A DNA stretch of 64,000 nt, from assembly GCF_000455345.1 (NCBI RefSeq), contig NZ_HG315690.1, forward strand, positions 1,191,742 to 1,255,741, written 5' to 3'. Origin of the DNA: Halopiger goleimassiliensis (GTDB lineage Archaea > Halobacteriota > Halobacteria > Halobacteriales > Natrialbaceae). Positions 2,829-41,299 of the stretch are shown piece after piece; within the stretch, counting starts at the first letter, position 1; each line of letters starts with the position of its first letter. The notes under the pieces are model-generated. The model saw only the letters and a list, made by a program, of their open reading frames with translations. It was not told the origin of the DNA and searched no databases. The translations under genes and the position numbers were made by a program.

Positions 2829-3326
2829 ATGACCGACGACGGGGTGTCGACGCGCGAGTGGGACGATCTGCTCGCCGACGCCACCGCCATCGCCGACAGC
2901 TACCGGGAAGAGGGCTGGGACGTCGTCGTTCCCGCCCCCGAGTCCGTCTCGCCGCTCGCGGACGACGACCGACGCGGCTTCGAGGTGCTCGTCGACGACG
3001 AGACGTACGACCTGCTCGCGTCGCTCGTCGACGGCGACGTCTCGATCGACGACGCCGAGGTCTACTACCGCCCCGCCGACGGCGGCGACCGCCGGTTCGC
3101 CCTCGCCGTCGAACGCGACACCGACACCGAGACGGCGGTCTGTCTCCCGCTCACCTACTCGATGGCCGCGGCCAGGCCAGTGCTCGAGGCGGCGCTGCTC
3201 GAGGAGGAACTGCCGGTCTACGTCGGCGCGGCGGCCGACGGGTCAGAGGAGCGGCTCACCTTCTCGCACGACGATCCGTCGCTCTTTCTCGAGGAATCCG
3301 ACGTACGCGGCTGGGAGACGGAGTGA
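2829..3326 (+). CDS. Conserved haloarchaeal protein of unknown function (DUF7529-like)
   Basis: A 165-residue, strongly acidic, soluble protein. It has a short helical N-terminus with YREEGWDVVVPAP (about residues 23-35), followed by an alpha/beta region ending in FSHDDPSLFLEE. From memory this layout matches an uncharacterised haloarchaeal DUF family (DUF7529-type); I could not check that. The ATG at 2829 is chosen because the upstream extension is arginine- and proline-rich and unlike the acidic body. It has no signal peptide, membrane segment or cysteine cluster. Its neighbours, a small membrane protein and tRNA-His, say little about its job. Confidence 0.7.
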   Translation: MTDDGVSTREWDDLLADATAIADSYREEGWDVVVPAPESVSPLADDDRRGFEVLVDDETYDLLASLVDGDVSIDDAEVYYRPADGGDRRFALAVERDTDTETAVCLPLTYSMAAARPVLEAALLEEELPVYVGAAADGSEERLTFSHDDPSLFLEESDVRGWETE

Positions 3327-39074: not shown

Positions 39075-39797
39075 ATGATCGATCTCGATATCGACATGCG
39101 GCAGTACGACTGCCCGTTCATCGACACGACGGACGACGTCGATATCGTCTTCTCGGCGGTGCAATGGCAACTCGACACGGGCGACGAACAACTCGAGACG
39201 CGCCTGATCGCCAGGGGGGAGTCGACGGGGGCGCTCGAGGACGGCCTCCGGACGCTCCGGGACCACCCGAACATGAACGAGTGTTACATCCTCACGAAAC
39301 GGGAGAACGTCGCCGAGATCGGGACGACGATCGAGCAGACGAACGCGATGGAGACGATCCAGCGCAACGGCGGCTACATCACCGGCCCCTTCCGCATCGA
39401 GAAGGGGCGCGAGCGCTGGCACGTCGGCTTCGACGACGACGAGGACGAGGACCACGCGCTGGCCGACCTCGAGCGCCACAACGACTACCACGTCGAGGAC
39501 CGCGACCAGTTCGGCGCGACGACGCTGTTCGACCTGCTCGAGAACTCCGACAGCGCGATGACCCTGCTCGAGGGCTGTCGCTCCCTGACCGAGACCGAGC
39601 GCGAGACGTTCGAGGTCGCCGCCCAGCGGGGCTACTACGAGACGCCCCGCGACACGACGCTCGAGGACCTCGCCGCCCACTTCGACGTCTCGAAGACCGC
39701 CGTCTCCATGAACCTCCGGCGCAGCGAGCGCAAGCTCCTCCAGGGCGCGCTCACCGCGCTCGAGGAGCTGGACAACCGGGAACCGCTCGAGAACTGA
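39075..39797 (+). CDS. Bat-like HTH-10 transcriptional regulator
   Basis: A 240-residue regulator. Residues ~1-165 form a sensor region. The HTH_10 domain begins near residue 178: SLTETERETFEVAAQRGYYE, then TTLEDLAAHFDVSKTAVSMN, which is the helix-turn-helix. It is complete, unlike the Bat-like gene at the window start. Its divergent position beside the hydroxybutyrate dehydrogenase and CoA ligase operon suggests that it controls those genes. The signal it senses is unknown. Confidence 0.83.
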   Translation: MIDLDIDMRQYDCPFIDTTDDVDIVFSAVQWQLDTGDEQLETRLIARGESTGALEDGLRTLRDHPNMNECYILTKRENVAEIGTTIEQTNAMETIQRNGGYITGPFRIEKGRERWHVGFDDDEDEDHALADLERHNDYHVEDRDQFGATTLFDLLENSDSAMTLLEGCRSLTETERETFEVAAQRGYYETPRDTTLEDLAAHFDVSKTAVSMNLRRSERKLLQGALTALEELDNREPLEN

Positions 39798-39925
39798 GTT
39801 CGTCGATCGAAACCGCCAGTCGTCGGTTCCGCTCCGTTCATCGCACGATTTCGGGTGAGGATGTATCGCGGATGGAAACGGAACGATCGAGGAGCGACCG
39901 TTGGCAACTGGATCGAGAATACATT

Positions 39926-40037
39926 GAAAGCCCCCGGCCGTCTCGAGTCGGGGGACTCGCTGCGCGCCTCGGTCTCCGACCTGCGGTGCTTGCGTCGCCC
40001 GCCTTCCTCGAGACGGCCGGCCCCTTTCAGTCCCACC
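39926..40037 (-). repeat. Structured element A (GTGGGACTGAAAG...GGGCTTTC)
   Basis: On the minus strand it starts GGTGGGACTGAAAGGGGC and ends GGGGGCTTTC. Its two 22-base arms (39926-39947 and 40007-40028) pair at 19 positions around a 59-base loop. It shares its start and end motifs with element B on the other strand. Confidence 0.6.
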
Positions 40038-40213
40038 CGAGCCCTCTTCCTCCCCAACCGGCTCGCTCACTTCGTTCGCTCGCCCCTCGCGAGTAAGCGA
40101 GACGTTCTCGCATCTGCTCGAACATCTCGCCAGCGCGCCAGATGGCCGGGAGCACGCCTCCGCGCCTACTGCATGGAGGCGTGCGACCCGGGGAAGGGCA
40201 GGGTGCGGTCCCT

Positions 40214-40325
40214 GGTGGACTGAAAGGGCGAGCCGCTGTGGCGTTTCATATAGTCGCCTCAGCGACCCCTATCCGCGCAAGCGCGGATATGTCGCTGAGC
40301 GACCGCCACAGCGGCGAGGGCTTTC
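40214..40325 (+). repeat. Structured element B (GTGGACTGAAAG...GGGCTTTC)
   Basis: It starts GGTGGACTGAAAGGGCG and ends GCGAGGGCTTTC. The 22-base arms (40222-40243 and 40304-40325) pair through GAAAG and CCGCTGTGGCG. Inside are three nested hairpins: GTCGC/GCGAC, TATCCGCGC/GCGCGGATA, and GTCGC/GCGAC. Its length of 112 bases equals that of element A. Confidence 0.6.
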
Positions 40326-40471
40326 GAGGTGTTCGACGTTCGAGTTCCCGCTGCTCACGAAAATCGCATCACCGTCTCGATCGAGAGGTGATCAATCCCC
40401 ACCCGAAATCGTGCACGATAACGACGGCGTACCGAGGAGGCGACGAGCCGTACCCCGACCGCGTCGAAACG

Positions 40472-41299
40472 CTACTCCCCGCCGCCCTGCATGAGCAGCT
40501 GGATCTCCTCGTCCTCGGCGAGCACCTCGGGGTCGCCGCTGTCGACGATCTCGCCGCGCTCGATCACGTACATCCGGTCGACGATCTCGGGCACGTGGCT
40601 CGCGTTCGACTCCGCGACCAGCACCGAGATGTCCCGGTCGATGATCTCCCGGAGGTACGTCTTGAGGTTCTCGACGACGACCGGGGCCAGCCCCTCGAGC
40701 GGTTCGTCGAGGATGAGCAGGTCCGGCTTGAGCGCCAGCGCGCGGCCGATGGCGGTCATCTTGCCCTGGCCGCCGCTCAGGTTCTGGACCTCGGCGTCGC
40801 GGCGGTCCTCGAGTTCCGTGAACAGGTCGAAGACGTCCTCGACGACGGCGTCCTCGTTTCTGATCCCGCGGGCGTCGCCGGCGGTCCAGATGGGGAGGCG
40901 GACGTTCTCCTCGACGGTCATCCCCGTGAACAGGTCGCGGTTCTCGGGCTGGTAGCCGATGCCGCGTTTGGGGATCAGTTCCGGCCGCAGGTCGAGCAGT
41001 TCCTCGCCCTTGAACCGGATCGAGCCGCTCGCGACGGGCGTCAACCCCATGATCGAGCGGAACGTCGAGGTCTTGCCGGCCCCGTTGCGACCGACCAGGG
41101 CGACGGCCTCGCCGTGACCGACCTCGAGGTCGAGGCCGTGGGTGACCTCGAACCCCTCGACCAGCGCCGAGAGGTTCCCGACCTCGAGCAGCGGTTCGGC
41201 GTCCGACCCGGCGGGGGTCGCCGCGTCGGCACCGGCACCTGCGTTGGCGGTAGCCTCTCCGTCGTCCCCGCTGTGGGGGCCGCGCTCGTCGGCGCTCAT
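40472..41299 (-). CDS. livF: Branched-chain amino acid ABC transporter, ATP-binding protein LivF
   Basis: A 275-residue ATPase. The Walker A is VALVGRNGAGKTSTFRSIMG, the signature QNLSGGQGKMTAIGRAL, and the Walker B LLILDEPLEGLAP. The first ~35 residues are a low-complexity extension rich in A, G and D, unusual for LivF. The rest is normal. It is the last gene of the importer operon and overlaps livG by 4 nt (ATGA). Substrate class is inferred from the whole operon. Confidence 0.88.
   Translation of the reverse strand: MSADERGPHSGDDGEATANAGAGADAATPAGSDAEPLLEVGNLSALVEGFEVTHGLDLEVGHGEAVALVGRNGAGKTSTFRSIMGLTPVASGSIRFKGEELLDLRPELIPKRGIGYQPENRDLFTGMTVEENVRLPIWTAGDARGIRNEDAVVEDVFDLFTELEDRRDAEVQNLSGGQGKMTAIGRALALKPDLLILDEPLEGLAPVVVENLKTYLREIIDRDISVLVAESNASHVPEIVDRMYVIERGEIVDSGDPEVLAEDEEIQLLMQGGGE

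Follow-up and report, generated by a model that had tools for sequence, protein, structure and literature searches.

The window analysed here, a stretch of 64,000 nucleotides from Halopiger goleimassiliensis, holds a composite repeat in the spacer between two convergent genes of the open reading frame (ORF) list, one for an HTH regulator and the other livF. We read it as a non-coding composite of the mobile type, with hairpins A and B as its two ends, joined head to head. The parts of the element and the genes that flank it are the following:

39075..39797, plus strand: flanking HTH regulator gene, bat-like by inspection, outside the element (from its ORF and synteny)
39843..40414, no strand assigned: the complete composite, 572 bp (aligned with six others from the same genome; nine relatives' spacers without hairpin or repeat end)
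39843..39867, plus strand: left terminal inverted repeat, GCACGATTTCGGGTGAGGATGTATC
39926..40037, minus strand: hairpin A, A-type subfamily, 112 nt (113.6 bits with covariance model R1)
40049..40139, minus strand: 5′ module of hairpin A, the upstream segment common to 38 of 117 aligned copies; within it, on the minus strand, GGTTGGGGAGG at 40049-40059, a small hairpin at 40060-40084 and the start, GGCGCGCTGG, at 40130-40139
40153..40185, plus strand: central stem, the 5′ part of the B side (arms change in step among composites, by inspection)
40214..40325, plus strand: hairpin B, 112 nt, of the B-type subfamily (its nearest relatives are on plasmids of Haloarcula)
40390..40414, minus strand: right terminal inverted repeat
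40472..41299, minus strand: flanking livF-like ABC transporter ATPase gene, outside the element (from its ORF and relatives)

The original prediction had described two 112-nt hairpins with a shared 5′ motif and a shared 3′ end, and we find both at exactly the positions it gave. The exact 12-mer GGACTGAAAGGG is common to the two, and each finishes in GGGCTTTC. Both fold as had been proposed, hairpin A with an energy of −65.9 kcal/mol (z −3.7) and hairpin B with −72.1 kcal/mol (z −7.2), and for each of them none of 200 shuffles folded as well. The strong stem suggested at 40153-40185 is also real, with a z of −2.4 for the stretch that holds it, and its arms change in step among other copies, as judged by inspection. 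The extent first given for the feature covers the hairpins correctly and falls short of the full unit, which measures 572 bp and is bounded by inverted repeats of 25 nt that are 88% complementary. The terminal-repeat consensus has two sites in the window, compared with zero expected by chance.

The cores of the two hairpins are different, GACGCAAGCACCG...GCGCAGCGAGTC in hairpin A and GACCCCTATCCGCG...GCGGATATGTCGCTGAGCGAC in hairpin B, and hairpin B reaches only 36.9 bits (E 8e-5) with the covariance model built from A-type copies. A and B thus represent two subfamilies, and covariation within a single stem does not by itself account for their differences. The idea of a conserved structure with covariation is supported across the copies of the family. 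A CRISPR link, which a resemblance to the 3′ tag of CRISPR repeats had brought to mind, is not supported: TGAAAG forms one side of the base of the hairpin, opposite CTTTC. No CRISPR array (direct repeats with unique spacers) was found in a repeat scan of 39500-40700 or in the loci examined.

The element is dispersed through its own genome. A DNA search with the region as query gave 44 matches there, and covariance model R1, which is of the A type, recognised 26 hairpins; across copies, hairpin length ranges from about 104 to 122 nt. Seven composites can be aligned at their two ends, along hairpin A and through the centre; in one of them hairpin A is reduced by the loss of its interior, and two have extra structured sequence in B. 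The outer repeat occurs at eight genome sites, compared with zero for a reversed control. Further copies consist of two hairpins set head to head around a palindrome of about 25-30 nt. At five loci (L015, L023, L024, L029 and L315), the hairpin interior is gone between its short direct repeats and the frame alone remains. A reading of the copies as a conserved short ORF was dropped since their lengths vary out of frame.

Nine loci from haloarchaea (L160-L166, L170 and L172) show synteny for LivF, the HTH gene and the gene that follows, and a motif search of those nine spacers, which range from about 30 to 1650 bp, found no hairpin and no repeat end. Because the syntenic LivF-HTH spacer of nine relatives lacks it, the composite at this site is an insertion. 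The dispersed copies, the inverted ends and the empty syntenic spacers together back the earlier suggestion of a palindromic or mobile element.

A covariance-model search of other haloarchaea, a check that the original prediction had proposed, matched the hairpin in 44 of 61 relatives (model R1). This bears out the impression that similar motifs occur in other haloarchaeal intergenic regions, as copies are mostly intergenic, 78 of 87 lying outside genes predicted by a simple purpose-written ORF caller. In a phylum-wide draw, R1 matched 29 of 33 members of the order and none of 164 others, a split taken from the printed kinship order; at the first look of this draw, most of the listed non-order genomes had far fewer candidates. 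The highest copy number is 84 in one genome, with 51 in a congener. The hairpin is carried by 46 plasmid records, nearly all of them without an annotated feature under the match. Phage records gave no match, nor did viral contigs in an exact-pattern scan with length limits, which is weak evidence of absence. No curated Rfam model matched at its gathering score, either at the element or in eight related loci, and in the literature searched the core words were absent in any relevant context. The hairpin family appears to be previously undescribed and to span much of an archaeal order.

Copies show no clear bias in placement, the four orientations of neighbouring genes being represented 23, 22, 18 and 16 times. 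One locus was compared among seven congeneric species: it is filled in four of them and empty in two, and in the seventh the hairpin alone is missing. The stems at orthologous sites are species-specific, for example CGCGAGGAC in genome G056 and CGGCTCCGG in genome G126, a pattern that points to probable concerted evolution or repeated replacement. It also means that part of the covariation among copies is whole-stem exchange rather than stepwise compensation. At L134 (1180-1880) and L313 (1330-2000), which come from two species and differ in sequence, tandem repeats of the element's 3′ end, with a unit of about 50 nt, lie beside a full copy.

The structure itself is conserved. In an alignment of 117 distinct copies, standard pairs make up 96.9% of the pair cells, and both sides have changed in 29 of the 34 pairs; covariation stands at 0.595, compared with 0.145 when shuffled and at most 0.066 when slid, a value that is inflated by whole-stem exchange and comes from an alignment fitted to the covariance model. 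When the 19 own-genome copies were aligned with MAFFT, with no fitting to the model, double changes were seen in 21 of 34 pairs. Overall there are 100 G·U pairs compared with 23 A·C, and the long outer stem has 26 compared with 9. This asymmetry, drawn from related copies in a model-fitted alignment, suggests that it is the GTGGGACTGAAAG strand that folds, as RNA or single-stranded DNA (ssDNA). Because the copies are related, p-values serve only as a guide. A plain palindrome would not be expected to have conserved parts that do not pair, and here there are some, for example GGG opposite GGG.

In 38 of the 117 copies, additional stems and a conserved segment, GGCTGGGGAGG, lie ahead of the hairpin. 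The stem that precedes the hairpin also changes in step, with 77% paired compared with 54% when shuffled, in a register (one class shifted by one base) that was chosen after a first, out-of-register count; the RNAalifold consensus of this upstream module was uninformative owing to the poor alignment. In three related species, roughly every second copy has a TTATAAAT-like box about 13-18 nt ahead of the module, as counted by inspection. We also observed TTATAAAT boxes at L311, L273, L274 and L277-L279, before the module or beside the element, with several on the other side in L311. These boxes may be promoters or a separate repeat. No TATA box was seen at the window copy. It is possible that hairpins A and B form a non-coding RNA pair.

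On plasmids, the hairpin has a recurrent partner. Most plasmid copies have a divergent gene for an OB-fold protein at a distance of about 456-626 nt (by annotated starts), in Natrinema, Natribaculum, Halopiger, Natronorubrum, Halobiforma, Natrarchaeobaculum, Halorientalis, Haloplanus, Haloprofundus and Haloarcula; the exceptions among the plasmid loci examined are L242, L243, L247 and L325. In plasmids of several families, the hairpin is the end of a conserved non-coding region of 0.5-0.6 kb that is divergent from the OB-fold gene. The protein matches the Pfam OB domain below cut-off and, over part of its length, the NCBIfam replication factor A model at about 1e-14 to 1e-15, again below cut-off, which is weak evidence that it may be RPA-like. 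Its record names are DNA-binding protein, replication factor A and SOSS complex subunit B. One form of the gene is present in 153 plasmid records and the Haloarcula form in 15. In the reverse test, with loci chosen by the OB-fold gene alone, a significant hairpin was found at the expected place in four of eight; the other four, pNRC100 of Halobacterium among them, contain weak matches or apparent broken remnants only, and the pNRC100 hairpin is degenerate.

The non-coding region and the OB-fold gene are conserved to about the same degree: the identity of the region in five plasmid pairs is 81-92%, compared with 80-88% for the gene, with gaps left out and some pairs having 160-200 gap columns. 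The region 5′ of the gene is full of strong stems (L336-L343, L240, L241, L244-L246 and L323-L335), and its MFE is similar on both strands and so does not tell the direction of an RNA. In four Haloarcula plasmids, a TATA box points into the non-coding region 262-264 nt before the hairpin; in a fifth, which has an internal expansion, the distance is 393 nt. When the related plasmids L240, L241 and L246 are compared, homology extends across the OB-fold gene and on to the hairpin, but dies away where the hairpin ends on its 3′ side (near 3107), as if recombination may take place there.

We lean, by a little, towards a reading of the composite as a mobile-type insert whose hairpin ends belong to a Halobacteria-wide family with its home form on plasmids and non-autonomous derivatives on chromosomes. 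The GTGGGACTGAAAG strand would fold when single-stranded, whether as RNA or as DNA exposed in replication or transfer, and a trans-acting protein would recognise the folded strand. The home form would be the plasmid locus, made up of the OB-fold protein and the structured region of 0.5-0.6 kb that ends in the hairpin. Chromosomal copies would share the terminal domain of the plasmid element, which would be a structured RNA or a single-strand DNA element, and would have spread in trans, and gene conversion would then homogenise them. Most chromosomal copies have no OB-fold gene nearby, so descent from plasmid to chromosome is a guess. A more specific version, which we regard as rather doubtful, is a two-gene plasmid system, widespread in Halobacteria, of an RPA-like OB-fold protein and a divergent structured ncRNA of 350-600 nt, the terminal hairpin of which would have moved out into chromosomes and become a repeat that is mobilised in trans or recognised by a protein.

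Alternatively, each copy could be a working RNA gene, encoding a structured RNA of about 110-350 nt with its own promoter and a conserved hairpin core that binds protein. The strong covariation, the conserved loops and the G·U preference on one strand would all be expected of such a gene, as would the near-constant TATA distance in the Haloarcula plasmids and the TATA box that roughly every second copy from three species has ahead of the module. However, the window copy has no visible TATA box, and the patchy presence, stem exchange and random orientation resemble a repeat; we therefore view this alternative as unlikely, if a credible one.

No mobilising enzyme was found for the composite or the hairpin, and by eye no target-site duplication was seen at the ends of the aligned composites. 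When up to three mismatches were allowed, the 25-bp ends recognised only composite-associated sites in the organism's own genome. The terminal inverted repeats of the composites are those of a classical MITE, in which a DDE transposase would act on the 25-bp ends and the hairpins would be passengers, but neither a duplication nor an autonomous partner was found, and most hairpins occur outside such composites, with other ends. Such an origin is quite improbable. Lower still stands a double-stranded palindrome with a structural role, for instance as a transcription terminator or a site for a nucleoid protein: the element is intergenic and at this site lies between convergent genes, but copies have no preference for orientation or gene ends, and the conserved loops with GGG facing GGG fit this role badly, as does the strand asymmetry, making it very unlikely.

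A Y1 transposase is missing from 7 of 13 tested element-carrying genomes and was not found in the organism's own, and reverse transcriptase was found in none of the 13, which makes both unlikely as mobilisers now, though either may have been present in the past. An origin from PATE or IS605 TnpB elements was rejected: none of the six own-genome TnpB genes adjoins a copy, and their 3′ ends are unrelated. The head-to-head pairs and strand-specific folding would suit a REPIN- or PATE-like element moved as ssDNA by a Y1 transposase (IS200/IS605, RAYT), but with the Y1 gene so often missing and the TnpB ends different, this is the least probable explanation and one that we hardly credit.

The mobile-type insert with a plasmid home form, which we prefer, matters as part of an apparently undescribed family, one that extends through a large part of an archaeal order and numbers 84 copies in its richest genome. 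The fixed link of this family on plasmids to the gene for an ssDNA-binding protein, which includes the model genera Haloarcula and Halobacterium (pNRC100), makes it a question that can be tested in the laboratory.

In its behaviour the element resembles repeats of the REP or MITE type; we do not file it as either, because it did not pass the tests for RAYT and TnpB and no target duplication was seen. MITEs are likewise non-coding and multi-copy with inverted ends, and terminal inverted repeats are present here, but the composite has no visible duplication and a parent transposon was not found. REP sequences and REPINs (BIMEs) with their RAYTs are also dispersed intergenic hairpins, often in head-to-head pairs, that fold on one strand. 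However, REPIN hairpins are short, tens of nucleotides, whereas the hairpin described here is about 110 nt with a conserved core, and many of its hosts are without a Y1/RAYT gene. PATE and IS605 TnpB elements likewise have near-terminal palindromes and are present in haloarchaea. The leading regions of conjugative plasmids such as F contain ssDNA promoters (Frpo/ssi), structured DNA near a gene for single-strand-binding protein; as an analogy only, the plasmid hairpin likewise adjoins an ssDNA-binding-type gene, and many of the plasmids are typed MPF_T. Nearest by description, the sole basis of this comparison, are the small mobile repeats (SMRs) of Haloquadratum walsbyi, which are short and non-coding and have inverted ends but neither a target duplication nor a known mobiliser (PMC3119063). 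The inverted ends and the lack of a visible target duplication fit, but SMRs measure 80-110 bp, with SMR-A at about 110 bp (PMC3119063), whereas the composite described here is 572 bp long and encloses a pair of large hairpins, and its range extends throughout the order.
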